Origin: Gammaproteobacteria bacterium | Lineage (GTDB): Bacteria > Pseudomonadota > Gammaproteobacteria > Steroidobacterales > Foliamicaceae | Assembly (NCBI GenBank): GCA_009838035.1 | Contig: VXSK01000028.1 | Location: 124,001-188,000 of the forward strand | DNA: 64,000 bases | Reading direction: 5' to 3' | Shown here: positions 33,341 through 50,096 of the stretch, in pieces | Position numbering within the stretch: the stretch's first letter is position 1 | Layout of the letters: each line of letters begins with the position of its first letter | The notes under the pieces: generated by a model | The model's database searches: none | What the model was told of the DNA's origin: nothing | Seen by the model: the letters and a program-made list of their open reading frames with translations, nothing else | Translations under genes and position numbers: made by a program

Positions 33341-34453
33341 ATGAATCCCGTATTCGTAACCGGCGCGGCCGGACATGTGGGCGCCAATCTTGTGCGCCGC
33401 TTGCTCGACGACGGCGTTCGCATCCGGGTGCTGCTGAGGAACGAGGACAACAACGAGGGCCTGGAAGGCCTTGATGTTGAACGCGCTTACGGCGATATCC
33501 GGGACCTGAACGACACCCGGCGCGCGATCGAGGGTTGCGAGGGCGTCTATCACGTCGCCGCGAAGGTATCCACCATTGACGGCACTCGCGCGCATCGCCG
33601 CGAGATTTACGAGTGCAACGTGGTGGGCACGCGCAACGTGCTGCAGGCGGCGCGGGAGACGGAAGCCGGACGGGTCGTGGTCACCGGCTCGTTCAGCGCC
33701 GTTGGCTACGATCTGGACGATCCGTCGGCGCCGAGCGACGAGACCATGCAGTTCTACCCCATGGAACGCACGATGCCCTATGAGCGCAGCAAGATGCTCG
33801 TCGAGCACGAGTGCTGGCGCGCGGTGGCGGCAGGGCAGGACGTCATTGTCGCAACCTGCTGCGCGGTCGTGGGCGGCGCGGACTTTTTCCCGTCGCGCCT
33901 GGGCCGGACCCTGTGCGACTTCACCGACGGCAAGCTCCATGCCTACGTGGACGGCGGGTTTGAGTTCGTGGCGGCGCGCGACATCGTCGAAGGACACCTG
34001 CTTTGCATGCGTAACGGACGCCCGGGCGAGAAGTACATCTTCAGCAGCGAATACAAGACCATCTCCGATATGCTCGATCTCTACGAGGAGGTTTCGGGTA
34101 TCCCGCGTCCGCGCCGGCGGATTCCGGCCAACCTGATGTATGTTTTCTCGGAGGCGGCGAGCTTCTACCTGAGCCGCGTGCACCCCGACTTTCCCCAGCG
34201 TTTCACGCCCGGCGCCATCCGCCTGCTGAAAAAGCGCCGTCACGCCAATCTCGACAAGGCGAAAAGCGAGCTCGGCTACCGGCCGACCAGCATCCGCGAC
34301 GCCGTGCATGAGGCGTACGCGTTTCACTATCACGAGCGCAAGGCGATCACCAATCCGCAGGCGAAACGCCCGCTCGCGAACGGCGCGGCCCACGAGGAAA
34401 GCGCCGTGCCAAACCAGGCCACGCAGGTAACCGCCGATGGGGGCGCGTCATGA
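33341..34453 (+). CDS. sdmB: SdmB-like NAD(P)-dependent sterol dehydrogenase (3-beta-HSD/epimerase family)
   Basis: This 370-residue extended SDR has TGAAGHVGANLVRRLLDDG at the N-terminus and catalytic YERSK (Y and K of YxxxK), like 3-beta-hydroxysteroid dehydrogenases. In bacterial sterol synthesis, SdmB removes the C-4 carboxyl group by oxidative decarboxylation after SdmA oxidises the methyl group. It opens a tight sterol operon and overlaps the Rieske gene by 4 bases, which is the main reason for this name over a generic epimerase. Confidence 0.85.
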   Translation: MNPVFVTGAAGHVGANLVRRLLDDGVRIRVLLRNEDNNEGLEGLDVERAYGDIRDLNDTRRAIEGCEGVYHVAAKVSTIDGTRAHRREIYECNVVGTRNVLQAARETEAGRVVVTGSFSAVGYDLDDPSAPSDETMQFYPMERTMPYERSKMLVEHECWRAVAAGQDVIVATCCAVVGGADFFPSRLGRTLCDFTDGKLHAYVDGGFEFVAARDIVEGHLLCMRNGRPGEKYIFSSEYKTISDMLDLYEEVSGIPRPRRRIPANLMYVFSEAASFYLSRVHPDFPQRFTPGAIRLLKKRRHANLDKAKSELGYRPTSIRDAVHEAYAFHYHERKAITNPQAKRPLANGAAHEESAVPNQATQVTADGGAS

Positions 34454-35580
34454 ACACGGCGACGGCTGGACCGCCGGGCTTCGAGGAGGCCGTCAACCTG
34501 CGCCAGAAGGTGCGCGCCGCGGGCATGGACCCGGACTACTGGTACGCGGTCGAGGAGGTGCGCAATATCAAGCCGGGAACCGTTGTCGAGGTGGTTTTCT
34601 GGAAGCGTTCGATCGCGCTGTTCCGGGCCGGGGACGGTTCGTTCCACGCCATGGACAACCGCTGCGCGCACCGCCAGCTCAAGCTGTCGCTCGGCCAGGT
34701 GGAAGGTTGCCGGCTCGTGTGCGCCTACCACGGCTGGAAATACGACCCGGACGGACAGCTAGCCGAGACCGCGCACGAGATGCTTGGGGGAAGCATGCCG
34801 AGTGTCGCGCTCAGGACCTATCCGGTGAAGGTCCGCTACGGCCTGGTCTGGCTGTTCCCCGGGAACCCGGAACTCGCCCAGACCCGCGGGATTCCCGACA
34901 TTCCCGAGCTGGAAGGCAAGGGCCGCTGGGCCTGCGTGCCGCTGAGTTTCACCTGGTCGGCGCACCACTCGATGGTGATCGACAACGTCAGCGATTTCAC
35001 CCACGCCTGGCTGCACCGCCGCTACCGTCCGTTCGACGGCGCCGTGCTCACGCGCTGCGAGACGGTCGGCGACGACGTGCACGTGGCCTACGACACGAGC
35101 GTCGGCCGCGGGCGAATTTTCGGAATGTTCGTCGATCGCGAGCGGATCGACACCAATTCCATGAAGCTCTGCTATCAGTATCCCTACCAGTGGTCGAACA
35201 CCGACGACGCGATCAAGCACTGGTGTTTCGTGCTGCCCGTCGACGAGCGCACCAGCCGGGCCTTCTTCCTGTTCTACTTCAAGTCCCTGAAGGTTCCGAT
35301 GCTGCCGATACGCTTTCCCCGGCTGGCAATGACCACGGTACTGAAGATATCGAACCGCGTGCTCATCGGTCCGCTGCTCTCCCAGGACGGCTTTGCGCTC
35401 GAAGCCGAACAGGAGGGTTACGAGCGGCACTGGGACGCCCGTCCGCTCGAATTCAACCCCGCTGTTCGGGCTTTTCAGAACGTGACGGTGCGCAAGTGGC
35501 AGGAGTACCTGGCCAGGGAGAACGGGGCGGAGACGCCCGCACCCGGCCTGACGACAGCGAACGGCGGCGCCGATGCCTGA
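34450..35580 (+). CDS. sdmA: SdmA-like Rieske oxygenase, sterol C-4 demethylase
   Basis: This 376-residue protein has the Rieske [2Fe-2S] ligands CxH in RCAHRQLKL and CxxH in CAYHGWKY, and the mononuclear iron set in DNVSDFTHAWLHRRY. In Methylococcus-type sterol synthesis, SdmA oxidises the C-4 methyl to a carboxylate. Overlaps with sdmB (4 bases) and the sterol reductase (8 bases) support this role. Reductase partners are not encoded nearby. Confidence 0.87.
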   Translation: MNTATAGPPGFEEAVNLRQKVRAAGMDPDYWYAVEEVRNIKPGTVVEVVFWKRSIALFRAGDGSFHAMDNRCAHRQLKLSLGQVEGCRLVCAYHGWKYDPDGQLAETAHEMLGGSMPSVALRTYPVKVRYGLVWLFPGNPELAQTRGIPDIPELEGKGRWACVPLSFTWSAHHSMVIDNVSDFTHAWLHRRYRPFDGAVLTRCETVGDDVHVAYDTSVGRGRIFGMFVDRERIDTNSMKLCYQYPYQWSNTDDAIKHWCFVLPVDERTSRAFFLFYFKSLKVPMLPIRFPRLAMTTVLKISNRVLIGPLLSQDGFALEAEQEGYERHWDARPLEFNPAVRAFQNVTVRKWQEYLARENGAETPAPGLTTANGGADA

Positions 35581-36670
35581 GTTGCCGCTGCCGGTATTCA
35601 CGCTTTCGGGCGCCCGGCTGCTCCAGGCGGCAGTAATGATCGCCGTCTTTATCGGCGCATTGTTTCTGGGATCGATACTCGTGCCGGGTCGCCGGATCAG
35701 GGGGCCGGATCTCGGCGGCAAGTCGATCACCTACAAGATCAACGGGCTGGCGCTTTTGCTGCTCACCGTGCTTGCGGCAGGCATCGCCCAGGTTTCCGGC
35801 GCGTTCTCACTGTCGATGCTTTATACGCACTTTTTCGCGCTCTTCGTGGCGGCGAACGTGTTCGCATTCGCGTTTTCCGGCTGGCTTTACTGGCGAAGCG
35901 CGCGGAAGCCTGCGGAATCGCCGGGGTTCTGGCGGGCCTACTTCTTCGGTGCGGAACTCAATCCCGCCCTGCTCGGAGTGGACCTCAAGATGTTCAGCTA
36001 CCGCCCGTCGCTCATCGGGCTGGCGCTGTTCAACACCTCGTTCGCCGTCGTTCAATACGAAACCTACGGCCACCTGACCCTGGCTATGGCCCTCTACCAG
36101 GTCCTGACATGGGTCTATGTGCTCAATTACTTCCAGTTCGAAAGGGGCATGGTCCACACCTGGGACATCATCAGCGAGCGCTTCGGATGGATGCTGGTGT
36201 GGGGCGACTACGTGTTTGTGCCCTTCTTCTACTGCATTGTCGGCTGGTGGCTGGTCGATGCGACCGGCCCGCCGCTGAACCCTTTGGCCGTCGCCGGCAT
36301 CGTGCTGCTGTACGCCTTCGGCTTCTGGATATTCCGGGGCGCCAACGCGCAGAAGCACCGTTTCAAGCGCGACCCGTCCACGACGATCTGGGGCCGGCCC
36401 GCCGAGTCCCTTGACGGGCGTCTGCTCGTGTCCGGGTTCTGGGGCATCGGGCGGCACCTCAACTACAGCGGCGAGATCTGCATCTACCTCGCGTTTGCGC
36501 TCACCATCGGTTTTGCATCCTGGGCGCCGTTCCTGTTGCCGGCCTGGCTTGCTGGGCTGCTGTGGCATCGCTCTCGCCGCGACGAGCGGCGCTGCCGCGC
36601 CAAGTACGGCGAACTGTGGGGGCGCTACCGGGAGCGGGTGCCGTATTCGATGGTCCCGTTCGTGTATTGA
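35573..36670 (+). CDS. C-14 sterol reductase (ERG24/ERG4 family)
   Basis: This 365-residue polytopic membrane protein carries the sterol reductase signatures: ANAQKHRFKRDP, GFWGIGRHLNYSGE, and a C-terminal LLWHRSRRDERRCRAKYG followed by WGRYRERVPY, closely matching eukaryotic delta-14 reductases (HRexRDexxCxxKYGxxWxxY..VPY). It would reduce the C-14 double bond left by CYP51. About eight hydrophobic segments are visible. It overlaps the Rieske gene by 8 bases and is followed by cyp51 after 10 bases. Confidence 0.92.
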   Translation: MPELPLPVFTLSGARLLQAAVMIAVFIGALFLGSILVPGRRIRGPDLGGKSITYKINGLALLLLTVLAAGIAQVSGAFSLSMLYTHFFALFVAANVFAFAFSGWLYWRSARKPAESPGFWRAYFFGAELNPALLGVDLKMFSYRPSLIGLALFNTSFAVVQYETYGHLTLAMALYQVLTWVYVLNYFQFERGMVHTWDIISERFGWMLVWGDYVFVPFFYCIVGWWLVDATGPPLNPLAVAGIVLLYAFGFWIFRGANAQKHRFKRDPSTTIWGRPAESLDGRLLVSGFWGIGRHLNYSGEICIYLAFALTIGFASWAPFLLPAWLAGLLWHRSRRDERRCRAKYGELWGRYRERVPYSMVPFVY

Positions 36671-36680
36671 GGGAATAAGG

Positions 36681-38090
36681 GTGGCGAACCATACCGACAG
36701 TGCAGCCACCCTGCGTTCGGCGCGGCCCGCGGCGCCGCCGGGCAAGCCGATTCCCGAACTCTCCGGCGGTTGGCCGCTGCTGGGGCATCTGCCGGAGTTC
36801 CAGAGGGACCCGGTGGCGATGCTAGGCCGCTGCTGGCGCGAGCATGGCGAACTGGTCCGTTTCCGGCTGGGGACGCGCGAATTCGTGCTGTTTACCGGGC
36901 CGGAAGCCCACGACTGTTACTTCCGGGCGCCCGAGGACCAGCTTGACGCTCGTGCCGTGTACCAGTTCACGGTGCCCATCTTCGGGCGCGGCGTGGCCTA
37001 CGACGTGGCTCCGGAAATCATGGCGGAGCAGTTGGGGTTCCTGTATCCGGCGCTGCGCGACGCTCCGATGCGCAGGTACGCCGAAATCATGTACGACGAA
37101 GCCGCCCGGTTTGCCGACGCGCTCGGAGAGGAAGGGACCATCGACCTGCCTGCCGCGATGAACGAACTCACCGTCAACATCGCCAGCCGCTGCCTGCTGG
37201 GCGAGGAGATCCGCGGGCAGGTGGATTCGGGTTTTGCCGAGGCGTATCACGACCTGCAGGAAGGGATCAACCTCCTCGGGTTCTTTCTTCCCAGGCTGCC
37301 GATCCCGGCGCATCGAAGGCGCGACCGGGCGCGCCGCAGGATAGCGCAGCTCCTTGCCCGGGTCATGAAGGACCGCCGAAGTTCGGGCGCCGCGCCCCGG
37401 GACTTCATGCAGGCGCTGATGCAGGCCCGCTACAGGGACGGCCGGACCCTGAGCGACGACGAGGTGACCGGGATACTGCTGACGGTACTGTTCGCCGGCC
37501 AGCACACCAGCGCGGTGCTCGCAAGCTGGATGGGCCTTGAGATGTTCCGCGATCCCGCCTGCGTGGCGCGGATTCGCGCCGAGATGCGCGAGATTTACGG
37601 TGAGACGGGGGCCATGAGCCTCGCCGGCCTCAAGCGCCAGACGGCGCTGGAATGGACGGTGCGCGAGTGTGAGCGGCTGCATCCGCCGCTGATACTGCTC
37701 ATTCGCAAGGTGCTGAAACCGCTTCAATATGCGGGGTACACCGTGCCTGCCGGGGCCCTGGCCGTCGTCTCTCCGGCGGTTTCCCACCGTTTGCCGGGCC
37801 TGTTCGCCGATCCTCAGCGGTTCGATCCCGAACGGTTCGCTCCGCCGCGCAGCGAGAACAAGCAGCACCTCTATACGCTGATCGGTTTCGGCGGAGGCAA
37901 GCACCGGTGCATGGGGGAAAAATTCGCCATGCTGCAACTGAAGGCGATCTGGACGGTGCTGCTGGACCGCTTCGATTTTGATCCCGTTGCGGATTTTCCC
38001 GCGCCGAATTACGGCAGCTGGGTGACGGGCCCCACGGTGCCGTGCCGGGTCCGCTACCGCCGCCGCTCGCAAGCGAGCGTATTCCGTTGA
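36681..38090 (+). CDS. cyp51: Sterol 14-alpha-demethylase, cytochrome P450 CYP51
   Basis: This 469-residue P450 has CYP51-specific features: the B-C region YQFTVPIFGRGVAYDV, the I-helix FAGQHTSAVLASW, ExxR in RECERLHPP, and the heme loop FGGGKHRCMGE with Cys410. It removes the 14-alpha methyl group of lanosterol-type sterols. No membrane anchor is visible, as in the Methylococcus enzyme. The GTG at 36681 follows GGAATAAGG. It overlaps the monooxygenase-cyclase gene by 4 bases. Confidence 0.94.
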   Translation: MANHTDSAATLRSARPAAPPGKPIPELSGGWPLLGHLPEFQRDPVAMLGRCWREHGELVRFRLGTREFVLFTGPEAHDCYFRAPEDQLDARAVYQFTVPIFGRGVAYDVAPEIMAEQLGFLYPALRDAPMRRYAEIMYDEAARFADALGEEGTIDLPAAMNELTVNIASRCLLGEEIRGQVDSGFAEAYHDLQEGINLLGFFLPRLPIPAHRRRDRARRRIAQLLARVMKDRRSSGAAPRDFMQALMQARYRDGRTLSDDEVTGILLTVLFAGQHTSAVLASWMGLEMFRDPACVARIRAEMREIYGETGAMSLAGLKRQTALEWTVRECERLHPPLILLIRKVLKPLQYAGYTVPAGALAVVSPAVSHRLPGLFADPQRFDPERFAPPRSENKQHLYTLIGFGGGKHRCMGEKFAMLQLKAIWTVLLDRFDFDPVADFPAPNYGSWVTGPTVPCRVRYRRRSQASVFR

Positions 38091-41000
38091 GCGCCGCCAC
38101 TCCGCGTTACGACGTAATCATCGTTGGTGCGGGGCCTGTAGGCAGCTATTGCGCCCTGGCCCACGCGCGCAGGGGCGCGCGCGTGGCCTTGCTCGAGGCG
38201 AACCCCAGGGCGGCCACGCGGCTGGCCGGCGAGTGGCTGCACCCGCTGGCCGTGCGCATGTTGCGCGATGCCGGCATCCGCCTCGATCCGCCGCTGCGCA
38301 GCACCGAGGGTCAGGGCTTCGTCGTATTTCCCGAGGACGGCTCGGAACCGATCGTGCTCCCGTACCCCGGCGGGGCGCTGGGGATAGCCTGCGACCATGA
38401 GATTCTCGTGGCGCGTCTTCATGAAGCCGTCCGCAAGGAGCCGGGCATCGACTTTCTTGTCAATGCGCGGGTGCGGCAGGTCGAAGACGACGGCGTGGTC
38501 TTCACCCGCGGCGGCTCCACCGAATGCCTCGCCGCCGACAGGATTGTCGGCGCCGACGGCCGGTCATCCGCCGTGCGGCGGTCCCTGGGGCTGCCGATGC
38601 GCCGCAAGGCCTGCTCGCGGATGGTGGGCGTGACCCTTGAAGGCGTGAGTCTGGAGCCGGCCGGCTACGGCAACGTGATACTCGGCGGCCCGGGTCCGAT
38701 TCTCGGATATCCGCTGGGCGAGCATTGCGCCAGGATCGTCGTCGACGTGCCGCTTGAGCAGTGGACCTCGCGCGACAGGACCGGCCTGCTGGCCGAGTCC
38801 TACGCCAGTGTCCTGCCGGAAGCGTTGAGGCCCGCGTTTCTCTCGGCGCTGAGGTCGGGAAAATTCCACGCGGCGGCCAATGAACTCAGGCCGCGCATCT
38901 CCTACGGCACGTCGAGGCGGGTGCTGATCGGCGATGCGGCGGGTCATTACCATCCGATGACGGCGGTGGGCATGACGCTCGGTTTCGGCGATGCGGCCGC
39001 GCTGGCGGAAGGCGGGAGCTTCAGGAGTTTCGCCACCGGGCGATTCAGGGCGACCCGCGCCCCGGAACTGCTCGCCATGGGGCTGTACGAGGTCTTTGCC
39101 GATCATCGACTCGAAGCGGCGGCGCTCCGGCGCGCGATCTACCGCAACTGGCGGGCGCATGGCGTTGTTCGCGACCGGACCATGCGGCTGCTCGCCTGTG
39201 AAGAAACCTCGATGACCCACCTTGTGCTGGCAACGCTCGCCACGGTGATCCGGGCGATTGCCGGAGTGGTTCGTTCGTCGTTCAGACAGCTGGCCTGGCG
39301 GCGGGCCAGCTACATCGTTGTACCGATCGTTACCCGCGCGCGCTGGTTCATGCGTGGCATTCGCAAGCTGAAGGAGGCCAGGAACGGAGGCGGCGGTCAG
39401 GACCGGCAGGCCCGCAGGGCGTTGTCGCGCGCGCTTCTCGCTTCCATGTCCCCGGACGATGGCGGAGCCGGCGCCGCGCGGACGGGCGAATCCGCGTCGC
39501 CCGACGCGGAGCCCGCATTGCGCCGGGCCGCGGGGCGCCTGCTGGACCTTCAGGGCGAGGACGGCGCCTGGGAAGGCGAGATGGTCTGGTGCCCCATGCT
39601 CACGGCGCAATACGTGCTGCTGCAACACGTTCTCGGTGAGCGGATCGACTCAGGCCGGCGGCGGCGCATCCTGCGCTCGTTCGAACGCACCCGCCTGGCG
39701 GACGGCGCGTGGGGATTGCACGAGCACTCGCCGCCCCACCTGTTCGTGACCGTTCTGGTTTATGTCGCGTCGCGACTGCTCGGCGTGGAGCAGGACGACC
39801 CGCTTGTCACGCCGGCCCGCCGTTTCCTCGCCGAAGAGGACGTGCTCGCGGTCCCGAGCTGGGGGAAATTCTGGCTGGCGCTGCTCAATCTGTACGACTG
39901 GCGCGGGGTGAATGCCGTTCTCCCGGAATTGTGGACGCTGCCGCGCGGGTTGCCGTTGCATCCCTCGAACTGGTACTGCCACACGCGGCTCATCTACATG
40001 GCGATGGCGTCCATCTACGCGCGACGGTTCCAGGCGCCGGTCACGCCCGTGATCGAATCCCTGCGGGAGGAACTGTTCGGAAACGGGTTTGCCCGCCTCG
40101 ATTTTTCTTCCGCCCGCAACCGCCTGCGCGATGCCGACCTGTTTGCCCGCCCGAGCGTGTGGCTGCGTGTCGGATACGCGCTGGCGCGCCTGTATGACCG
40201 CTTCCACAGCAAGCGCCTGCGCCGCCGCTGCCTTGAGAAGCTGGTCCGCCAGATCCAATGGGAGTTGCGGACCACGAGTCACAGCAGCATCTCGCCGGTC
40301 AGCGGTTATCTGAACATTCTGGCTTTGTGGCTGCACGATCGGGACGACGCCGACTGCCGTGCCGCGCTCGACCAGCTCGACGGCTGGTTCTGGGAGGACG
40401 AGGAGCGTGGCGCGCGGGTCACCGGAGCGAGAAGCAGCACCTGGGACACGGCCTTTTCCGTGCAGGCGCTGGCGGCCGCGCCCGGGTCCGGGGAAATTTC
40501 GGACGCCGTCCGCAAGGGCGCCGGCTTCCTGCGCGCACAACAGATCCGCACCAGCTTCGACGGGTATCGCGAGGCCTTTCGCGCCGACCCGAAGGGAGGC
40601 TGGTGTTTTCCCGGCGGCTGGCATGGCTGGCCGGTCAGCGACTGCACAGCCGAAGCCGTGCTCGGGATTCTCGCCGCGGGAGGTGAAGACGGGGACGAGG
40701 CGGCACTGGGCGAGGCGGTCCGGTTCATGTTGCGGAGCCAGAACCGCGACGGCGGCTTCGGCAGCTATGAGGCGCGGCGCTCGCGGATCGGTCTCGAGTG
40801 GCTGAACCCCGCCGAGATGTTCGGCGAATCGATGACCGAGAATTCCTATGTCGAGTGCACGGCGTCCTGTCTCGAGGCGCTGGCCGCCTGCGGGCGCCGG
40901 TTCCCGCAATTCCCGGATCCGCGGGCGGCCCGGGCCATTTCCAGGGGCGCCGCCTGGCTGCGCAAGACCCAGGAACGCGATGGCTCCTGGCGCGGCGTGT

Positions 41001-41494
41001 GGGGCGTTCAGTTCATCTACGGTACCTTCTTCGGCATCAGAGGACTGGTGGCCGCCGGGGCAGGACCCGGCGATCCGGCGCTGCGCCTGGCCTGCCGCTG
41101 GCTGCTCGACCGGCAGCGCGATGACGGCGGATGGGGCGAACACCACAGCGGCTGCCTGACGGGCCGCTACGTCCCGCATGAGGAAAGCCAGGTCATCCAG
41201 ACCGCCTGGGCCCTGCTCGCGCTGCTGGAGGCGGAGGATTCCAACTGGACCGCCATTGCGCGCGGCGCGCGGTTCCTGCTCGACGCCCAGGAAGCGGACG
41301 GCGGCTGGCCGAAACAGGACATGGCCGGCGTCTTCTTCCGCACTGCGCTGCTGGACTACGTCCTGTACCGGCAGTATTTCCCGCTGCGCGCGCTCGGCCT
41401 CTACGAGCAACGCCGCCGGAAGCGGCTCGAACTGACTGCCGCTTCGAAGGAGAAGGAGCCGGACGCGGTCCGGATCAGGCCGCGAGCCGCTTGA
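38087..41494 (+). CDS. Squalene monooxygenase-oxidosqualene cyclase fusion protein
   Basis: One continuous frame of about 1135 residues carries two pathway steps. Residues 1-440 are an FAD squalene monooxygenase: GAGPVG (14-19), GEWLHPLAVRMLRDAG, and GDAAGHYHPMTAVGMT with D283, then hydrophobic helices. Residues about 455-1115 are an oxidosqualene cyclase: QW motifs (RDGGFGSYE, DGGWGE), the catalytic D852 in VSDCTAE, NSYVECTASCLEAL, and GVQFIYGTFFGIRGL. DCTAE, rather than the DxDD of squalene-hopene cyclases, marks a sterol cyclase. The start is TTG 38087 overlapping the CYP51 stop (TTGA), or GTG 38042. Such fusions are not a familiar arrangement. Confidence 0.92.
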   Translation: MSAATPRYDVIIVGAGPVGSYCALAHARRGARVALLEANPRAATRLAGEWLHPLAVRMLRDAGIRLDPPLRSTEGQGFVVFPEDGSEPIVLPYPGGALGIACDHEILVARLHEAVRKEPGIDFLVNARVRQVEDDGVVFTRGGSTECLAADRIVGADGRSSAVRRSLGLPMRRKACSRMVGVTLEGVSLEPAGYGNVILGGPGPILGYPLGEHCARIVVDVPLEQWTSRDRTGLLAESYASVLPEALRPAFLSALRSGKFHAAANELRPRISYGTSRRVLIGDAAGHYHPMTAVGMTLGFGDAAALAEGGSFRSFATGRFRATRAPELLAMGLYEVFADHRLEAAALRRAIYRNWRAHGVVRDRTMRLLACEETSMTHLVLATLATVIRAIAGVVRSSFRQLAWRRASYIVVPIVTRARWFMRGIRKLKEARNGGGGQDRQARRALSRALLASMSPDDGGAGAARTGESASPDAEPALRRAAGRLLDLQGEDGAWEGEMVWCPMLTAQYVLLQHVLGERIDSGRRRRILRSFERTRLADGAWGLHEHSPPHLFVTVLVYVASRLLGVEQDDPLVTPARRFLAEEDVLAVPSWGKFWLALLNLYDWRGVNAVLPELWTLPRGLPLHPSNWYCHTRLIYMAMASIYARRFQAPVTPVIESLREELFGNGFARLDFSSARNRLRDADLFARPSVWLRVGYALARLYDRFHSKRLRRRCLEKLVRQIQWELRTTSHSSISPVSGYLNILALWLHDRDDADCRAALDQLDGWFWEDEERGARVTGARSSTWDTAFSVQALAAAPGSGEISDAVRKGAGFLRAQQIRTSFDGYREAFRADPKGGWCFPGGWHGWPVSDCTAEAVLGILAAGGEDGDEAALGEAVRFMLRSQNRDGGFGSYEARRSRIGLEWLNPAEMFGESMTENSYVECTASCLEALAACGRRFPQFPDPRAARAISRGAAWLRKTQERDGSWRGVWGVQFIYGTFFGIRGLVAAGAGPGDPALRLACRWLLDRQRDDGGWGEHHSGCLTGRYVPHEESQVIQTAWALLALLEAEDSNWTAIARGARFLLDAQEADGGWPKQDMAGVFFRTALLDYVLYRQYFPLRALGLYEQRRRKRLELTAASKEKEPDAVRIRPRAA

Positions 41495-41496
41495 CG

Positions 41497-42516
41497 TCAG
41501 TTTCCCCGGGGTAGGGGTTTGCGGGCCAGGAAGTAGAACATCGGCGTAAAGATCCCGGTCCGGCCGCCTTCTACGAGCGTATCCGCCCCCCAGTTCAGGA
41601 ACGTGCTGACCTCCCGCGCGCCTTGCGGAGCGAGCCGCAACGGCTCCGCAACCCGCAGGATCAGATTGGTCAGGACGCGCCCCAACGGCGTGCGCGGGAT
41701 GCTCGCAAGGCTGAAGTCCCGGCCCTGAAGGGCCCGGTACCAAGGCGTTTCCGGATCCGATTCGCCGGCGAGGTCGAGGGATTCGATCAGCTCGAATCCG
41801 GCCGCGCGCACGGCTTCGCAAACTTCTGTCGTGCCGGCGATATCCGGTAGCGCCGATCCGGTCATGATTCCTTCCTTGATTTGCCGGTGTTCCGCGTTCG
41901 AAGGATCGAATGCGTCGGTGAGACACCATTCGTAGCACGCGAAACCGGCCCCGGGACGTAAAACACGGAAGATCTCGGCGTACGCGGCGGTCTTGTCCGG
42001 CGCGTGGGGCATCGCTTCGATGCTGATGGCGCCATCGTAGTGGTCGTCGCTCCGGGGAATCTGCATGTAGTCGCTTTTTATGAAACGGCACAGCGCCTCG
42101 ACGTCACGTGTGTGCACTTTCGCGCGCTCGATCTGGTAGGCGTTGTTGTTGATGCCGACAAAGCTTGCGCCGCAATGGCGGGCCAGGTTGCCCATGGGGC
42201 CGCCCACGCCGCATCCCACGTCGAGAACCTGCATTCCCGGCTTCAGGGAGAGCTTGTCGGCCAGGAAATGCTGGTGCCGGATCTGCGACGCCTTGAAACT
42301 CTCGCTCCGCCGGCGGGGGGCGAAGTGGAAGCTCTTGCCCCAACCCCACTCGTAGAAATCGGTCACGAGGTCGTAGTACTGGTTGACGAGCTGCCGGTAG
42401 CGCTCCTTCTTGCGCTCGACGCCGGCATCGTGAAGCCCGACGTAGTCATCGACCACCGACTTCACTTCCTCCTGGGTCAGATTCCCAAGAGAACGTTTGG
42501 TCACTTTCGCATCCAC
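41497..42516 (-). CDS. Sterol C-24 methyltransferase (Erg6/SMT family)
   Basis: This 339-residue SAM methyltransferase shows specific Erg6/SMT motifs, not just the Rossmann fold: YEWGWGKSFHFAPR (sterol-binding region I), LDVGCGVGGP (SAM motif), IEAMPHAPDKTAAYAEIFRV, EWCLTDAFDPSNAEHRQI and PWYRALQGRDFSL. It would add a methyl group to C-24 of the sterol side chain. Start: GTG at 42516, preceded by GGAGG. It is convergent with the cyclase gene (2 bases apart) and divergent from a small membrane protein. Bacterial SMTs from uncultured, including sponge-associated, bacteria have been described. Confidence 0.92.
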   Translation of the reverse strand: MDAKVTKRSLGNLTQEEVKSVVDDYVGLHDAGVERKKERYRQLVNQYYDLVTDFYEWGWGKSFHFAPRRRSESFKASQIRHQHFLADKLSLKPGMQVLDVGCGVGGPMGNLARHCGASFVGINNNAYQIERAKVHTRDVEALCRFIKSDYMQIPRSDDHYDGAISIEAMPHAPDKTAAYAEIFRVLRPGAGFACYEWCLTDAFDPSNAEHRQIKEGIMTGSALPDIAGTTEVCEAVRAAGFELIESLDLAGESDPETPWYRALQGRDFSLASIPRTPLGRVLTNLILRVAEPLRLAPQGAREVSTFLNWGADTLVEGGRTGIFTPMFYFLARKPLPRGN

Positions 42517-42639
42517 CCCCGCGCCTCCGGATATGCCGGCAGGAATCCGGCCGGATTGTAGCCCGTCTGCCCTCGATCCATCGAATCGCGGCGCGATAGA
42601 ATGCGCCCGCCGCCACAGTGGATAGTGTGAGGGGGGCAC

Positions 42640-43374
42640 ATGTCCGAAAGCCGCGCCAGCCTGCCGCCATCCGAACAGGGCCAGGACAGCAAGGGCCTGA
42701 CGGCGCCCGTGGCCTTGCTCGTGGCGCTGAAAATCGCGTGCGGCACGCTTCTCGGCATCCTGGTGCGCCTGCGCACCCACGGGGAGCTGAATTTCCTTCA
42801 TTCCCTGTTCTGCCTGTTCTTTTCGGTCAATCTCCTGATCTGCTACTGGGAAATCTGCCTGTTCTTCCTTCGTGACAGGATCGGGGCGCGCGCCGGGTAC
42901 TGGCGCGAAATGCAGCGCAGGACGGGACGCCCGCCCGCGCACGGTTTCTTCGCCACGAGGATCAGGCTTACACAGGTCCTGTCGCCGGCGGTCTGGGCCG
43001 ACGCCTGGGCGGCCTACTGCTATTACGACGACTCGTATGCCGACCGCCGCACCTTCGGCTTCAACGTGGACATCGCCAACGGTTTCGTGACGCCCGTTCC
43101 GACACTGGTCCTCTATGCCGCATACACGCTCGGCTACCCGTCCGCCCTGGTGGCCGGGGTCATCGGGCTGGCGCTTTCCTGGCAATGGGTTTACATGACC
43201 TCGACTTACCTGGTCAGCTTTTTCGTGGCGAGACGGCACACCCTGGTGAGCCGGCGCGACATGTATATCTACATCGTGGCGATCAATTCCTTCTGGATCC
43301 TGTGCGCGCTGCTGGGCGTATATGTTTCCATTGCCCTCATCGCCAACGGCGACTACCGCGTGCTGGGTTTGTAA
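42640..43374 (+). CDS. Polytopic membrane protein, candidate EBP-like sterol delta8-delta7 isomerase
   Basis: This 244-residue protein has about five hydrophobic segments. Its layout recalls emopamil-binding protein (EBP): an acidic residue in the second helix (E71, CYWEICLFF), DRRTFGFNVDIANGFVTP before a helix, WQWVYM, and a late NSFWIL resembling NALWL of EBP. Not all EBP catalytic residues are conserved (the expected Glu aligns with G148). It is divergent from the C-24 methyltransferase across 123 bases, GAGGGGGG precedes its ATG, and it lies in a sterol locus otherwise lacking an isomerase. The annotation is a hypothesis. Confidence 0.45.
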   Translation: MSESRASLPPSEQGQDSKGLTAPVALLVALKIACGTLLGILVRLRTHGELNFLHSLFCLFFSVNLLICYWEICLFFLRDRIGARAGYWREMQRRTGRPPAHGFFATRIRLTQVLSPAVWADAWAAYCYYDDSYADRRTFGFNVDIANGFVTPVPTLVLYAAYTLGYPSALVAGVIGLALSWQWVYMTSTYLVSFFVARRHTLVSRRDMYIYIVAINSFWILCALLGVYVSIALIANGDYRVLGL

Positions 43375-43436
43375 GCGGGCTCATACATTGCAGCGTATAT
43401 TTCATCTTGAGCAAGGGCAAAATACGCGCCAGCAGG

Positions 43437-44402
43437 ATGAAGTGGACCTACGGTTATGTTTTTCTGGCCTTGTCGTGGTCGATGAACGGCTCCGCCGCGA
43501 CCGGTACCTGCGATTCGCAGGACGAATACATCCTTCTTCTCCACGGCGGTTTCGCTTCCGCGCCGGAAAGGGTTGAACGGCAGCACCTCGATGTATTGAA
43601 GCGGGCCGTAACCGTGGGCCTGAAGGCTTTGGCCAACGGCGCAACGGCGCTGGACGTGGTCGAGGACTCGATCGTCCTGCTGGAGGACGCGGGAATCTAC
43701 GACGCCGGCAAGGGTTCCTACTTCAATTCCGAGGGCTTTGTCGAGAACGACGCTTCCCTGATGGAAGGACACACCGGCCGGGCCGGCGCCGTGGCGGCCG
43801 CGCAGTCGCTCAGGAACCCGATTCGCGCCGCACGCATTGCGATGGACAGGACGCCCCACGTGTTGTTCGTGGGCGCCACCGGCGAAGCGACCCTGATCGA
43901 GTTGGGCGCGGAGGCGGTGGAGGACCCGAAGAGCTATTTCAAGGAATACCGGCCACCCCCGCCGCAAGAGCCCGCGGAGGAACACGGCACCGTGGGTGCG
44001 GTGGCGCTCGACCGCTGCGGCAACCTGGCGGCCGGCACCTCCACCGGCGGTACCCCGGGCAAGATGCCGGGGCGGGTCGGTGACAGTCCCATGATCGGCG
44101 CCAGCAGCTTCGCCAACGCGAAGTACGCGCTGTCGGCAACCGGAAAGGGCGAGCACTTCATCCGGCGGGCGGCGACCCACGACATCGCCGCGCGCGCGGA
44201 ATACCTCGGCGTGCCGCTCCAGGACGCTGCCGATTATGTCGTCAGGGAGCTGATCGGCGACATGGACCAGGCGCAGGGCGCGGTAATCGCCATCAGCGCC
44301 GCGGGCGACATCGTGCTTTCGTCGAACGGTTACGGAGTCATGTATGGCGTCGGCAGCAATATTCTGGCCGCAACCGTCGGGGCGGAAGTGAAATACCAAT
44401 GA
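43437..44402 (+). CDS. Secreted isoaspartyl peptidase/L-asparaginase (T2 family)
   Basis: This 321-residue Ntn-hydrolase has a signal peptide (MKWTYGYVFLALSWSMNGSAA). Autocleavage before the nucleophile T185 in HGTVGAVALD would produce two subunits; GTSTGGTPGKMPGRVGDSPMIGA is the family signature. It hydrolyses isoaspartyl dipeptides or asparagine in the periplasm. ATG 43437 is preceded by CAGGA. It is not clearly linked to the sterol genes upstream. Confidence 0.92.
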   Translation: MKWTYGYVFLALSWSMNGSAATGTCDSQDEYILLLHGGFASAPERVERQHLDVLKRAVTVGLKALANGATALDVVEDSIVLLEDAGIYDAGKGSYFNSEGFVENDASLMEGHTGRAGAVAAAQSLRNPIRAARIAMDRTPHVLFVGATGEATLIELGAEAVEDPKSYFKEYRPPPPQEPAEEHGTVGAVALDRCGNLAAGTSTGGTPGKMPGRVGDSPMIGASSFANAKYALSATGKGEHFIRRAATHDIAARAEYLGVPLQDAADYVVRELIGDMDQAQGAVIAISAAGDIVLSSNGYGVMYGVGSNILAATVGAEVKYQ

Positions 44403-44433
44403 CGCGCCACCAGCAGATGTTGAAGGAACCCAT

Positions 44434-45033
44434 ATGACCGAACAGCGAATCGCCCAAATCCAGCAGCAGATATTCGAGTTGACCGGAGAACTGGGGACGC
44501 TCCTGAAGCAGAGCCGCGGCACGGAGGTCCCCGACTACCGCTTTGCGAGCGGGTCGGGCGAAGTGAGCCTGCTGGAACTGTTCGCCGGCAGGGACACCCT
44601 GCTCGCGATCCACAACATGGGCCAGGGATGTCGCTACTGCACCGTCTGGGCCGACGGCTTCAACGGCTTTCTCCCGCACCTGGAAAACGCCATGTCGGTC
44701 GTGCTGCTGTCCAAGGACCCGCCGGAACTGCAGCGGCGGTTCGCCAACGAGCGCGGCTGGCGCTTCCGGCTCGCTTCGCACGGCGGCGGCGCCTATATTC
44801 GCGAGCAGACGGTCGTGGGCGGCCAGGACAACTACCCGGGCGCGGTCGTCTACAAGCGCGAAGGGGACCGGGTCCTCCGCTTCAACGCCTGCGTCTTCGG
44901 TCCCGGCGACCTCTACTGCTCGCTATGGAGCCTCCTCGCGCTGGCCGGCATGGGCGCGCAGGACTGGACCCCGCAGTATTCCTACTGGCGCCGCCCGGAA
45001 GTCCTCGACGACGGCGGAGAAAACGTTTACTAA
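44434..45033 (+). CDS. DUF899 family thioredoxin-fold protein
   Basis: This 199-residue protein matches the DUF899/AhpC-TSA-like family: an N-terminal coiled coil, the VPDYRFASGSGEVSLLELF stretch, HNMGQGCRYCTVW with two Cys spaced CRYC, and AGGQDNYPG-like repeats with Tyr/Trp-rich ends. The family is presumed to be redox-active, but biochemical roles are poorly known. GAAGGA precedes the ATG. Confidence 0.85.
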   Translation: MTEQRIAQIQQQIFELTGELGTLLKQSRGTEVPDYRFASGSGEVSLLELFAGRDTLLAIHNMGQGCRYCTVWADGFNGFLPHLENAMSVVLLSKDPPELQRRFANERGWRFRLASHGGGAYIREQTVVGGQDNYPGAVVYKREGDRVLRFNACVFGPGDLYCSLWSLLALAGMGAQDWTPQYSYWRRPEVLDDGGENVY

Positions 45034-45825: not shown

Positions 45826-46566
45826 CTACGGGTTCAACTGCTTTCCGGTCGTGTAACCGCCATCCACGTATATGTCCTGACCGGTGATGTAACTCGCCGC
45901 GTCCGAACACAGGAAGGCGACCGTGTCGGCAATTTCATTCGGGGTCCCGGCGCGCTTCATGGGATGCGCCTTCAGCGACGCATCCAGTTGCTTTTCCTTG
46001 CCTGGCGCGTTCAGATGCGAGGACATCGGGGTGGTCACCAGCCCCGGGCAGACGCAATTCGCCCGAATGTTGTCGATTGCGTAATCGATGGCGATGCACC
46101 GGGTCAATTGCGCCACTCCCGCCTTGCTCGCCGCATAGGCGCTCATTCTTTCCGGCGCCAGGCGTCCATACACGCTGCCGATAGTGACTATGGACCCGCC
46201 CCCGTGTTTCTGCATGTGAGGAATGACGGCGCGAGCCACAAGGAAGGCCGACGTCAGGTTGACCTGCAGGACGTTGGACCAGCTCTGCGAATCCAGTTCC
46301 GTCACGGTGCCGTATTGACCGATGCCGGCGCAGTGAACGAGCGCATCCAGCCCTCCTGAGGGGATGCCAAAGCCCTGCACAGCCTTTTGTGTCACTTCCT
46401 CGTTGCCTGCGTCCGCCTGCTCGAAGCAGTCGAAGATCGATGGATCGGGACTTGCATTGAGGTCCATGCCCAGCACAGCGTATCCGTCCCGATGAAATCT
46501 CCGCGCGCAGGCAAGGCCTATTCCTGACGCAGCTCCGGTAATCAGTACGCGCTTTCGCTTACTCAT
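45826..46566 (-). CDS. SDR family oxidoreductase
   Basis: This 246-residue classical SDR has TGAASGIG near the N-terminus, HCAGIG, catalytic YAASK and a [12 protein letters not shown] end. It is the last gene of a leftward operon with an L-fuconolactonase-type enzyme and a Rieske oxygenase, so it may be a dehydrogenase of a sugar or an aromatic cis-diol pathway. The substrate is not readable. Confidence 0.88.
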
Positions 46567-46588
46567 GAGCTGCGCAGGTAAGGCCGCT

Positions 46589-47419
46589 TCAGATGCCGTA
46601 GAAGCGGGTGGCGGTGGCGCCCAGGACCTGGGCCCGGTCCGCTTCGTCTAGACTGCTCAGGAAGCGGTCGGCGATCGCGTGCCAGCCGGGGTAGGTGCCG
46701 GCAAGCAGGAGTACCGGCCAGTCGCTGCCCCACATGAGGCGCTCCGGCCCGAATGTGGCGAGCAGGTGCTCCATGTAGGGGAGCAGGTCGTCGTAGCCCT
46801 GGTCCGGGCTCGCTTCGGTCAATAGACCGGACAGCTTGCAGTACGCGCCGGTGCGTTCGGCCAGCTCGGACATCCGGTCCGCCCAAGGCTGCCACAGGCC
46901 CTCGGTAATGACCGGCTTCGCGCCGTGGTCGATCACGGTCTTGAGATTCGGATGGCGCTCAAGGAATTTGAGCAGGTAGGGCAGGTGCTGGGGGCGGACC
47001 AGCGCGTCGAAGCACAGGCCGGCCTCGATCACGGCTTCGGTCGCCGCGGCGAGGTCCGGGCGCGTGATCCATGCTTCGTCCTCGATGTTGTGGATCATCG
47101 GCCGGATGCCGACCAGCTTCGGGTGCTGCGCGAGACCGGCCAGCACAGCCCCCGCGTCAGCACTTTCCATGTCGATCCAGCCGACCACGCCGGCTACCAG
47201 GTCGGTCCGCCCGGCCAGTTTGAGCAGGAAGCGCGTTTCCGCGACGGTCGGCGCAGCCTGGACCAGGATGGTCCTGTCGACGCCCGCTTCCAACAATAGC
47301 GGGGCGAGGTCGTCGGGACCGAAGTCACGGTACAGCGGCTTGAGCGCCGGCGTCAGCCAACCGTAGTCGTTTCGCTCGACCTTCCAGAAGTGCTGGTGGG
47401 CGTCGATTCGAGGCGGCAC
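46589..47419 (-). CDS. Amidohydrolase family 2, L-fucono-1,5-lactonase type
   Basis: This 276-residue TIM-barrel hydrolase begins DAHQHFW (metal-binding HxH) and contains [18 protein letters not shown], typical of L-fuconolactonases, plus WGSDWPVL near the C-terminus. It opens the lactone made from L-fucose, the missing step between the AKR and fuconate dehydratase found at 27962-30321. It starts with GTG, sharing one base with the upstream Rieske stop; that Rieske link leaves a lactone from aromatic breakdown as an alternative substrate. Confidence 0.85.
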
Positions 47420-48549
47420 TAGCGTGGAAACGTCGTTGGCACCACCGGGTGGACCCAGTTCTTCGGGTCTTTTCGGCGGGCGGGCGAGGGGATGGAGTAG
47501 TGCCGGAAGCGCCCTTCGTCCTGCAACCTGTCGAAATCGATTTCCCAGCCCTGCTTCACTTTCTCGATCAGCACCTTGCGGAAAGCCGTCTCCATCTGGT
47601 CGGCCTCCACCAGGAGCTGGTGCGCCATGGAGCGCGGCACGAACTTCGGCTCGACCGTGGCCACCACGTCAAGATCTTCCTTGTAAGCCCGCCGTATGCC
47701 CTCGCGACGCGCCTCGTCGTGTTCTTCCTCCAACAGGTAATTGCGCGCCTGGTGCGCGAAAACCCGCGTGTTGTAAGGATCGACGGGCGTTCGGGCGGAA
47801 ATCGTCACCTGCCGGATATTGCCTTCCCTCGTGATGTCGATCCGGTGGGAAATGCCCGCCAGGTAGGAATCGGTCGAGGCCGTGGTCTTGCCCCTTTTTT
47901 CGGACACGAGTTTGGCGATGTCGGCGCTGATCTGGCTGCGCTTGGGCGGCACGCGCTGGCGGGTGGCGTTGTGTCCCATGAACGCGTTGGGGACCAGCGG
48001 AACGATCTGCACTTCCGGCGCGCTGCGGCGGCCGAAGCTGGCATGCACGAACGCGGGATGAGCGCTGTCCAGCGAGTTCTCGTGGCCGCGGGCCCAGTTC
48101 ACATCCGCGTCAAATTCCATCGACACGACGCGCCAGTTTTCCTTGTCGTGGTATTCGGGGAACTCGGTGGCCGGAATCCGGGGACGGTCGTTCTCCTCCA
48201 GGTCGCCCAGGAACACCCATACCCAGTCAAAGTGCTCTTCGACGGGATACGAGTCCACCCGCGCGCGCCTGGGAATCTTCGCGTCCTTTCCCAGCGACGG
48301 GATCTCCACGCACCGGCCCTGCGGATTGAACTTCCAGCCGTGGTAACCGCAACCGATGCAGCCGGCGCCGTCCAGCTCGCCCCGGCCGATCGAACCGCCG
48401 CGATGGCAGCAGGTGTTTGCCAGGCAAACCGCCTCGCCTTCGGGCGTGCGGTACAGGACGAAGTTCTGGCCTAACATACGCACGATCAGGGGCTTTTCCC
48501 GGTTCACCTGTTGACTCTTGGCAGCCACATACCAGTTGTTTATCAACAT
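47419..48549 (-). CDS. Rieske non-heme iron oxygenase (VanA-like alpha subunit)
   Basis: This 376-residue protein starts MLINNWYVAAKSQQVNREKP and has Rieske ligands CxH in CCHRGGSI and CxxH in GCGYHGWKF, with a mononuclear iron site in GHENSLDSAHPAFVH. Relatives demethylate vanillate or hydroxylate aromatic rings. Reductase genes are not nearby. It is divergent from an HpaB-type monooxygenase (70 bases), suggesting an aromatic-compound block. It is distinct from the sterol-locus Rieske protein at 34450. Confidence 0.9.
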   Translation of the reverse strand: MLINNWYVAAKSQQVNREKPLIVRMLGQNFVLYRTPEGEAVCLANTCCHRGGSIGRGELDGAGCIGCGYHGWKFNPQGRCVEIPSLGKDAKIPRRARVDSYPVEEHFDWVWVFLGDLEENDRPRIPATEFPEYHDKENWRVVSMEFDADVNWARGHENSLDSAHPAFVHASFGRRSAPEVQIVPLVPNAFMGHNATRQRVPPKRSQISADIAKLVSEKRGKTTASTDSYLAGISHRIDITREGNIRQVTISARTPVDPYNTRVFAHQARNYLLEEEHDEARREGIRRAYKEDLDVVATVEPKFVPRSMAHQLLVEADQMETAFRKVLIEKVKQGWEIDFDRLQDEGRFRHYSIPSPARRKDPKNWVHPVVPTTFPR

Positions 48550-48619
48550 GCTCGTTTCCCAGTCTGACGGCCGCGGGCGTGCGCGCGCCTCATTGTACTT
48601 TCGCCCCTGAACGGGAAAT

Positions 48620-50089
48620 ATGCTGCGCACCGGCAGGGAGTTTCTGGCAGGCCTGAGTGACGGCCGGAGGGTGTATATCGGGGGCGAGAGGGTCAAGGAC
48701 GTCACCGTGCACCCGGCGTTCGGGGGCGCGGCCCGCACGATGGCCGGACTGTTCGATTACAAGGCGGACCCCGCCAACGCCGGCGTGATGTCGTTCGAAG
48801 AGAACGGCGAACGTTTCGCCAGCTACTACCTGAAGCCACGGACCCGCGACGACCTCGAAAAGCGGTCCCGGGCCCACTACGCGATCGCGGACAAGACATA
48901 CGGGCTGCTGGGCCGGAGCCCCGACCACGTGTCCAGTTTCGTGACCGGCCTGGCTATGAACCCGGAAATACTGGACCGGGACGGCGACGCCTTTGCCGGC
49001 AACATATCCGCCTATTACGACCACCTGCGCAAGGGCGACCTGTACGCCACCTATGCGGTGCACCCGGCTCCCCAATCCAAGAACGAAGCGTTGTTCGGCG
49101 ACACCGGGGGCCACCAGGCCGTCCTCCAGGTCGTCGATGAAGATCGCCGGGGAGTCACGCTGAACGGAATGAAGATGCTTGCGACGGCGGGAATCTTCTG
49201 CGACGAAGTGTGGATAGGGAACCTCACGCCCATCTCGGACGACCGCGGCAAGGAGGCGATTACCTGCGCCGTTCCGATGAACGCCTCGGGGCTCACGCTG
49301 TGGGCCCGCAAGCCCATGGAGCCGTATGCCGTCAGCGAGATCGACAATCCGCTTGCATCGCGCTTCGACGAGAGCGATGTAATGCTGATCTTCGATAACG
49401 TGCAAGTGCCGTGGGAAAGGGTCTTCGTCCATGACCGCGCGGCGCTGTCCCGCGAAATCTATATCGAAACCGCCTCGCACACGCTGGGCAATCACCAGTC
49501 CAATGTGCGCTTTCACGCCAAACTGCGGTTTATCGCGGGCATCATCCACAAGATCGCCCGATCCGCGGGCGTGGACGGGATCCCCGTGGTGGCCGAGAAA
49601 CTGGGGCGGCTGGCGTCCTGGGAGGCCGCTCTGGGCGGGATGATTCAGGGCCAGATACAGGACTGCGAGGATCTCGGCAACGGCTACCTGAACTTCAACC
49701 GGCGCTACATGTACGCCGCCCTGAACTGGTGCCAGGAGCATTATCCCGAGATCGTTGCCATGATGAGAGAACTTTCGGGCGGGGGCGTTTTCCAGATGCC
49801 CGCGGATTTTTCCGTTCTCGACAACCCGGAAACCCGTGACATTTTCAACGACTACTGGACTACCCCGTCGGAATCGGCGGTTGATCGCGTGAAGCTCTAC
49901 CGGCTCGCCTGGGACATGTACGGCAGCGAATTCGGCGCCCGGCAGCAGCAGTATGAAAATTTCTTCGCCGGCCCGTCGTTCATCGTCCGCAATCACAGCT
50001 TCCGGGAAGCGCCCTGGAGTTCCTTCGACGGGATGGTGGAGCGATTGCTGGACGCCGGTTCCGCGCCGGACCGATCACGGGAGGACTGA
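48620..50089 (+). CDS. 4-hydroxyphenylacetate 3-monooxygenase-like oxygenase (HpaB family)
   Basis: This 489-residue flavin-dependent monooxygenase matches the HpaB/PvcC family: LRTGREFLAGLSDGRRVYIGGERVKDV start, HPAPQSKNEALFG-like substrate loop, GVTLNGMKMLATAG, VPWERVFVHD and a C-terminal ACAD-like helical fold. It hydroxylates a phenolic substrate using reduced flavin from a separate reductase; the flavin reductase at 3982 could serve but is distant. A racemase-like gene follows after 7 bases. Confidence 0.9.
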   Translation: MLRTGREFLAGLSDGRRVYIGGERVKDVTVHPAFGGAARTMAGLFDYKADPANAGVMSFEENGERFASYYLKPRTRDDLEKRSRAHYAIADKTYGLLGRSPDHVSSFVTGLAMNPEILDRDGDAFAGNISAYYDHLRKGDLYATYAVHPAPQSKNEALFGDTGGHQAVLQVVDEDRRGVTLNGMKMLATAGIFCDEVWIGNLTPISDDRGKEAITCAVPMNASGLTLWARKPMEPYAVSEIDNPLASRFDESDVMLIFDNVQVPWERVFVHDRAALSREIYIETASHTLGNHQSNVRFHAKLRFIAGIIHKIARSAGVDGIPVVAEKLGRLASWEAALGGMIQGQIQDCEDLGNGYLNFNRRYMYAALNWCQEHYPEIVAMMRELSGGGVFQMPADFSVLDNPETRDIFNDYWTTPSESAVDRVKLYRLAWDMYGSEFGARQQQYENFFAGPSFIVRNHSFREAPWSSFDGMVERLLDAGSAPDRSRED

Positions 50090-50096
50090 GGCTGCC

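Follow-up and report, generated by a model that had tools for sequence, protein, structure and literature searches.

A bacterial sterol gene cluster with a fused squalene monooxygenase-oxidosqualene cyclase and a candidate EBP-fold sterol C-8 isomerase

Gene content and layout of the locus

The window (the whole stretch of DNA analysed, 64,000 nucleotides) contains a sterol gene set at positions 33341-42516. Profile and PDB searches together supported all seven sterol activities, and the encoded proteins belong to sterol enzyme families, as the initial annotation had proposed. Its seven genes were found to be six reading frames, because the squalene monooxygenase (SMO) and the oxidosqualene cyclase (OSC) form one uninterrupted frame. 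That annotation mentioned neither the fusion nor the methyltransferase's strand, nor the gene at 42640-43374.

Five genes are co-directional on the forward strand. The first two encode an SdmB-like 3-beta-hydroxysteroid dehydrogenase/decarboxylase (33341-34453, 370 aa; NCBIfam NF052578 SdmB, PF01370, PF01073) and an SdmA-like Rieske oxygenase (34450-35580, 376 aa; NCBIfam NF052579 SdmA, PF00355). SdmB (297 bits) and SdmA (399 bits) were the respective best NCBIfam models; since both scores lie below NCBIfam's curated threshold of 600 bits for equivalogs, the proteins are rated as homologues and not as certified equivalogs. The SdmB-like protein is predicted to function in C-4 demethylation and the SdmA-like protein in C-4 methyl oxidation. 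They are followed by a sterol C-14 reductase homologue of the ERG24/TM7SF2 family (35573-36670, 365 aa), matched by PF01222 (242 bits) and by PDB entry 4quv, Delta(14)-sterol reductase (E 2.9e-67), and by a homologue of the sterol 14-alpha-demethylase CYP51 (36681-38090, 469 aa, GTG start), whose top PDB chains are named Cytochrome P450 51 (7jj1, 6mcw; E 3.7e-112). The fused SMO-OSC gene (38042 or 38087 to 41494) completes the run. From first to last, neighbouring genes overlap by 4 bases, overlap by 8 bases, are separated by 10 bases and, if the fusion starts at TTG 38087, overlap by 4 bases.

A sterol C-24 methyltransferase homologue (41497-42516, 339 aa from GTG 42516, later GTG starts being possible) lies on the reverse strand, convergent with the fusion and outside the co-directional run. 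Joining by overlaps or gaps of 4-10 bases, previously ascribed to most of the genes, holds for the four co-directional junctions. The protein was matched by PF08498 Sterol_MT_C (E 1.7e-21) and by methyltransferase models for the SAM-binding domain, and is predicted to act at C-24 of a Delta24 sterol. The sterol frames named in the initial annotation stop at 42516; position 43374, given there as the end of the locus, closes a separate gene for a 244-aa membrane protein (42640-43374). No tRNA genes or Rfam families were found in the window.

For comparison, 80 other loci were kept from 251 relatives found by contig scan, the other 171 lying outside the counts. With flanks of at most 10 kb, shorter at contig ends, which makes linkage counts lower bounds, the five co-directional genes occur together in 55 of the 80 loci, and their grouping is therefore not due to chance. 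The methyltransferase is also present in 35 of these 55 loci, on the opposite strand in 26.

The fused squalene monooxygenase-oxidosqualene cyclase

The fusion frame, on the forward strand, is stop-free throughout and encodes 1150 aa from GTG 38042 or 1135 aa from TTG 38087. The monooxygenase occupies residues ~20-410 and the cyclase residues ~490-1125, with PF08491 (residues 169-409) and both SQHop_cyclase domains (N and C) inside the one 1150-aa frame. TIGR03463 was matched at residues 499-1120 with 758 bits, below its own cut-off of 851, and the broader TIGR01787 was passed (501 against a cut-off of 323). PDB matches were lanosterol synthase (E 1.7e-136) and squalene monooxygenase (E 1.1e-24). 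The AlphaFold model (pLDDT 68.5, pTM 0.48) was too poor for judging channelling between the halves.

The fusion was full-length in 9 of 58 genomes, its own included, and the ORF reached at least 1000 aa in 77 of the 79 loci with a called fusion ORF. The 80th locus (L062) has a longer fusion; in L071 the fusion is split, and in L101 it begins near the contig end. A protein search for fusion relatives (7994 candidates scored) gave lengths of at least 1000 aa for 114 of the best 120 proteins listed; its length filter removed stand-alone monooxygenases, which places the frequency of unfused forms outside its scope.

Two residues before the catalytic Asp, at what we take to be a product-steering position of oxidosqualene cyclases, the alignment places a Val, the same as in human lanosterol synthase. 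Lanosterol is only a likely product, because two other positions, also presumed to steer the product, differ from the human enzyme. The fusion was rejected as a new discovery: fused SMO/OSC homologues already appear in the Methods of PMC10070321, as far as that text was available.

A membrane protein with a predicted EBP fold

The 244-aa membrane protein (TM244; 42640-43374, forward strand) points away from the methyltransferase gene, and 123 bases separate the two. Its predicted structure has the EBP (EXPERA) fold of five transmembrane helices and matches the human sterol isomerase EBP. On this model, TM244 likely carries out the Delta8 to Delta7 shift that is otherwise absent from the cluster.

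Sequence-level proof that TM244 is an EBP was sought and not obtained: the PDB search, Pfam, hhalign and a conserved-column test were all non-significant. PDB searches with the single TM244 sequence and with its profile gave no EBP match. The hhalign probability stayed under 2%, with P values of 0.03 (local mode) and 0.62 (global mode), and in the ungapped conserved-column test 1150 of 2000 shuffles did at least as well. The Pfam EBP model (PF05241) did not match TM244 of the window even at E 10, and matched 8 of 82 relatives at E up to 10 (best 0.0064); in single relatives other families scored as well or nearly so (DUF1673, 0.0012; NrsF, 0.009). The EBP bit scores printed for the relatives, 16.1 and 13.8, are below the gathering cut-off of 25.7, by which TM244 is not a Pfam EBP member. 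In a genome-wide EBP scan of 12 genomes, TM244 was matched in G027 (E 0.03) and G004 (E 3.5), an unrelated place in G006 (E 0.2) and nothing in the other nine; at the loose limit of E up to 10, matches also occurred in 8 of 14 control genomes. PF04622 (ERG2) was absent from the Pfam results for TM244 and the 81 relatives aligned with it, again at E up to 10.

Conservation was read from an alignment of 82 of 121 sequences (the window protein and the best 120 listed of 426), hand-picked to thin near-copies. Further alignments held 44 of the 121 sequences and 32 of the 120 EBP relatives listed; those with a named source are vertebrate. Residues E71, D144, N147, Q182, Y185 and W219 are invariant in all 82 rows and N216 is present in 81, as expected of an active site. 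By the end register of two structure alignments (entry numbering assumed native) and by local hhalign, N216 and W219 would fall on Asn193 and Trp196 of the EBP ligand site. E71 and D144 are proposed as counterparts of Glu80 and Glu122 in the His76-Glu80-Glu122 catalytic triad of EBP, in a region where the alignment is non-significant.

Compared with EBP (PMC6549186, as far as available), TM244 shows 12-14% identity in the fold alignment and no significant sequence match. If E71 equals Glu80, TM244 would carry about 30 extra residues before the proposed W101 equivalent, and I67 would stand opposite His76, which donates the proton in EBP; all 82 rows have I, V or A at this place. With I67 in place of a His at this proposed position, the proton route would therefore differ from that of EBP.

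Distribution of TM244 and its apparent alternation with ERG2

Genome-wide, TM244 was found in 53 of 80 fusion genomes and in 2 of 369 class genomes. It lies outside the fetched flanks in 54 of the 80 loci; given its presence in 53 genomes, 27 genomes therefore keep it away from these flanks. This frequent lack of linkage, together with a genome (G235) whose 19 kb of read sequence hold TM244 but no sterol genes, would suit an unrelated passenger beside what is only the known steroid cluster of sponge bacteria. We consider this improbable in view of the contrast between fusion and class genomes, the three separate arrangements in which TM244 stands beside the fusion, and its retention in G004 and G027 although unlinked to the fusion there. 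One genome that is 66% complete (G002) has a piece of TM244, and no fusion was found in it.

PF04622, to which the fungal C-8 isomerase ERG2 belongs, was detected in 6 of the 80 fusion genomes. In four of them (L042, L043, L060, L070) its gene neighbours the fusion, and the proteins of these loci measure 183-191 aa. This family, which includes the sigma-1 receptor, is predicted to perform the same step as TM244 and is a separate Pfam family. EBP-like and ERG2 folds replace each other between animals and fungi. If a 21-residue piece in L040 is set aside, no genome among the 80 holds both TM244 and PF04622, and neither isomerase was found in 21. The exclusion rests on six ERG2 genomes, all from the first 50; the second batch of 30 gave no ERG2 match, a null that does not establish absence; the same model had matched 6 of 50. 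A phylogeny-corrected, tree-based sign test had no power (p 0.5, with 4.2 of 6 pairs without difference).

An EBP-fold protein could also have another job, such as a different shift (e.g. Delta8 to Delta8(14)), a reaction on another triterpenoid intermediate, or the binding or moving of sterols, which some EXPERA proteins are thought to do. The near-invariant polar and aromatic residues and the lack, among the 80, of any genome with both TM244 and PF04622 speak against this, and we regard it as unlikely. A bolder reading is that TM244 represents an unrecognised family of EBP-fold sterol C-8 isomerases in at least six phyla (Pseudomonadota, Nitrospirota, Acidobacteriota, Gemmatimonadota, Chloroflexota and Binatota), swapped against ERG2 alongside the fused SMO-OSC; uncultured bacteria would thus make fully eukaryote-like 24-alkylated Delta7 sterols with a bacterial enzyme set invisible to sequence profiles. 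We put its probability at roughly 60%. Among the literature matches listed, no TM244-like bacterial EBP-fold isomerase was found. Two papers, in the parts that were available, mention C-8 isomerase homologues from bacteria, namely Calothrix (PMC10202945) and Methylotuvimicrobium (PMC13277303), and name no protein family for them there.

Proposed pathway and its meaning

The six adjacent frames encode the SMO-OSC fusion and homologues of CYP51, C-14 reductase, SdmA, SdmB and sterol methyltransferase (SMT), and TM244 is the likely C-8 isomerase; we rate this explanation as a whole as more probable than not. Squalene would probably be supplied by an HpnC/HpnD-type pair elsewhere in the genome, which has two SQS_PSY genes. 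The halves of the fused protein would convert squalene to its epoxide and this to a lanosterol-type sterol. Removal of the C-14 methyl and of the double bond that results would fall to CYP51 and the C-14 reductase, and at C-4 one methyl or both would be lost through SdmA and SdmB. The step proposed for TM244 follows EBP: a proton would be added to the Delta8 double bond, the carbocation would be kept within a membrane cavity of polar and aromatic character, and the Delta7 isomer would be set free. With methylation at C-24 by the methyltransferase, the expected product would be a 24-methyl(ene) Delta7 sterol. What the analysis establishes is the gene content, the fusion, the predicted fold, the conservation and the co-occurrence; each catalytic activity, the order of the steps and the product are inferred.

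Sponge association is recorded for some relatives whose clusters are similar (also in the available part of PMC9531527), and hosts contain sterols; the methyltransferase and reductases might then remodel host sterols, with no de novo synthesis. Against this, the genome encodes CYP51, two SQS_PSY proteins and a monooxygenase-cyclase fusion that is complete, no cyclase besides the fused one was seen, and we rate remodelling as very improbable. At the level of gene families, the evidence supports a capacity to make sterols that are demethylated at C-14 and C-4 and methylated at C-24. The initial annotation had gone further to ergosterol-like sterols, a term that is not retained, as no C-24(28) reductase was assigned.

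Side-chain-alkylated steranes are taken as traces of ancient eukaryotes and sponges. Bacterial C-24 alkylation has already been shown in vitro (PMC10070321, in part); the ring structure made is what gene lists leave out. If the isomerase assignment is true, a dedicated enzyme in 53 of 80 fusion genomes would point to the Delta7 sterols that eukaryotes make and not to Delta8 sterols. TM244 would then be an EBP-fold enzyme missed by sequence search, and two unrelated folds, EBP-like and ERG2, would replace each other within bacteria.

Comparison with known sterol clusters

The kind of cluster is already in print (PMC9531527 and PMC10070321, each available in part), and neither the headline of the initial annotation nor C-24 methylation in bacteria, which it had presented as a novelty, is new. 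According to the available text of PMC9531527, 115 of the 537 sponge MAGs carry ERG24-CYP51-ERG7 clusters. Usually a DFR and a hypothetical gene border them at one end, and SMT1/ERG6 or FDFT1, encoded on the opposite strand, at the other. The window shares the gene order of these clusters of steroid genes (CSGs) from Ircinia and other sponge bacteria: C-14 reductase, CYP51 and cyclase, all on the forward strand with junctions of at most 10 bases (fusion start 38087), the SdmB-like and SdmA-like genes upstream on the same strand and the SMT 3' on the reverse strand. The DFR-like gene of CSGs is probably SdmB-like and the hypothetical gene probably SdmA. In the main text as available, the fusion is not mentioned and an EBP-fold gene is not named; ERG2 is mentioned for several CSGs.

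The clusters of PMC10070321 likewise combine SMT with sdmA/sdmB and other sterol genes, and bacterial C-24 methyltransferases, several from such clusters, were expressed and assayed there, 20 of 24 being active in vitro (text available in part). Its Methods trim "fused SMO/OSC homologs"; in the portion available, the fusion is not analysed and the main text mentions no isomerase, ERG2 or EBP.

With the Methylococcus-type C-4-monomethyl sterol pathway, the window shares homologous SdmA, SdmB and CYP51. This pathway is presumably the source of the matched PDB and NCBIfam entries. Beyond it, the window has an ERG24-type C-14 reductase, a C-24 methyltransferase homologue, the fused monooxygenase-cyclase and TM244.

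Sterol gene cluster and its surroundings

The window belongs to a 2.92-Mb draft genome (95.9% complete). SdmB-like and SdmA-like proteins, a C-14 reductase, a CYP51 and a squalene monooxygenase-oxidosqualene cyclase fusion were assigned by profile and PDB matches within 33341-42516, together with a C-24 methyltransferase (sterol methyltransferase C-terminal domain, E 1.7e-21). The initial annotation had listed seven genes; seven sterol activities were recovered, but from six reading frames, as monooxygenase and cyclase are fused, and the methyltransferase lies on the minus strand. Profile and PDB matches were strong for the core enzymes: the methyltransferase as given above, CYP51 (E 4e-112), the cyclase part (lanosterol synthase, E 1.7e-136) and the C-14 reductase (Delta(14)-sterol reductase, E 2.9e-67). 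SdmA and SdmB were the best-scoring models for their proteins, yet scored under the NCBIfam cut-offs.

Two genes just past the cluster, for an asparaginase and a DUF899 protein (43332-45033), were tested against the fetched flanks of the 80 fusion loci retained; L026 and L027 keep them, and the remaining 78 showed neither. Neighbours at 45826-57026 look catabolic (SDR, lactonase-like amidohydrolase, HpaB, arylmalonate-decarboxylase-like protein, oligopeptide ABC transporter) and include a Rieske oxygenase with weak SdmA and KshA_C matches.

Monooxygenase-cyclase fusion

Monooxygenase and cyclase share a frame from 38042 or 38087 to 41494 without a stop. The fusion was found at or near full length, uninterrupted, in 9 of 58 genomes searched (own genome included), and 114 of the 120 protein relatives listed have at least 1000 aa. 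Scanning named bacterial genomes gave 251 relatives, of which 80 loci were kept, all matching both parts; the called fusion ORF reached at least 1000 aa in 77 of the 79 loci having one. The fusion is therefore no assembly accident of this genome. By record title, the loci belong to Pseudomonadota, Nitrospirota, Acidobacteriota, Actinomycetota, Binatota, Gemmatimonadota, Chloroflexota, Rhodothermota and Bacteroidota. In a quick tree, in which 11 rows fell in no group, the fusion grouped mostly by class (9 label changes; minimum 7; shuffled mean 35.7), a pattern that fits few old transfers followed by descent.

One locus (L062:9992-14566, plus strand; Candidatus Versatilivorator vitaminiformans) contains a single 1524-aa frame joining monooxygenase-cyclase (66% identical to the window protein) and C-24 methyltransferase (67%). 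This three-enzyme fusion, seen in 1 of 80 loci, may stem from a stop lost by sequencing error. At L071:10001-13456 the fusion appears divided between a frame of 664 aa and one of 445 aa, through either a real split or a frameshift.

Thirteen loci (L045, L046, L065, L074, L077, L078, L081, L082, L083, L085, L088, L091, L095), 8 of them Acidimicrobiia by title, had the fusion alone among the window's sterol genes, as far as the fetched flank extends; several of these flanks are short. Recurrent flank genes from outside the window, named by eye, encode an FAD amine-oxidase-like protein (16/80), an RND-like transporter (10/80), a GOLPH3-like protein (10/80) and a squalene-synthase-like protein (8/80). 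In L153 (G003:C37:13000-32000), HpnC-, HpnE- and HpnD-like genes (also named by eye) flank SdmB-SdmA-C-14 reductase-fusion-TM244, and CYP51 is missing at its usual place.

TM244, a candidate sterol C-8 isomerase

The span annotated initially as the sterol locus also holds TM244 (42640-43374, plus strand), a 244-aa membrane protein with a predicted EBP/EXPERA fold and candidate for a new enzyme family. Of the 80 fusion loci, 26 have TM244 within the flank that was fetched, and three arrangements occur; in G003 it follows the fusion after 12 bases. The whole genomes from which the 80 loci come carry it in 53 cases (34/50 and 19/30). Among 369 genomes drawn from the class, two carry it, own genome being one. 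Among genomes of the own genus and its near kin, TM244 is present in 7 of the 9 that hold the fusion; G001 and G008 have neither gene, and G002 (66% complete) has a TM244 piece, with no fusion found.

ERG2 (PF04622), the fungal-type C-8 isomerase family, occurs in 6 of the 80 fusion genomes (Alpha- and Gammaproteobacteria, Acidobacteriota, Acidimicrobiia, Rhodothermia) and adjoins the fusion in four. TM244 is absent from all six, on which the exclusion test rests (Fisher P 9.9e-4). On the fusion tree, ERG2 needs at least six changes and TM244 at least fourteen, and a phylogenetic pair test of the exclusion gave no significance. Neither gene was present in 21 of the 80 genomes. In a Binatota locus (L040:4289-4351, minus strand), a 21-residue ERG2-like N-terminal piece beside the fusion (76% identity, E 1e-4) opens with a start codon and is then lost; this genome has TM244 and no PF04622 match, and the piece may be what is left of an isomerase gene that was replaced.

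Most simply, TM244 and ERG2 do the same job, because unrelated proteins alternate in the same pathway setting, and because ERG2 is known for C-8 isomerisation and TM244 has the predicted fold of the animal enzyme. TM244 is thus likely a sterol C-8 isomerase. This assignment is weakened by the absence of significant sequence similarity to EBP, by the apparent lack of an equivalent of His76, the EBP proton donor, by the small base of six genomes under the exclusion test and by the 21 genomes with neither isomerase.

Pfam EBP matches were dropped as support, since individual relatives match other families with comparable E-values; a genome scan with Pfam EBP was likewise dropped, as control genomes match too.

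Squalene supply and later steps

The own genome has a back-to-back pair of SQS_PSY genes (C4:139108-140899), an arrangement like that of HpnC/HpnD pairs. A search of this genome gave no second cyclase-like match, so squalene would feed sterols alone. Two FA_hydroxylase genes and a second ERG4/ERG24-type reductase gene (L127; G000:C29:82056-83114; 34% identical to the cluster's C-14 reductase, unlinked to the cluster) could act in later steps, the latter as Delta7 or C-24(28) reductase.

Comparison with published systems

The sterane biomarker argument built on bacterial C-24 alkylation is not novel: PMC9531527 and PMC10070321 between them cover the cluster and bacterial SMT activity. The headline interpretation of the locus is already known, and the underlying observation was confirmed in part. 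According to PMC9531527, 115 of 537 sponge MAGs contain clusters of ERG24, CYP51 and ERG7; a DFR and a hypothetical gene usually precede them, and SMT1/ERG6 or FDFT1 follows on the opposite strand. In PMC10070321, 24 bacterial SMTs were expressed, 20 of which alkylated the side chain (8/10 and 12/14), some of these coming from sdmA/sdmB clusters. The SMO/OSC fusion itself is not new either, since that paper's Methods mention fused homologues.
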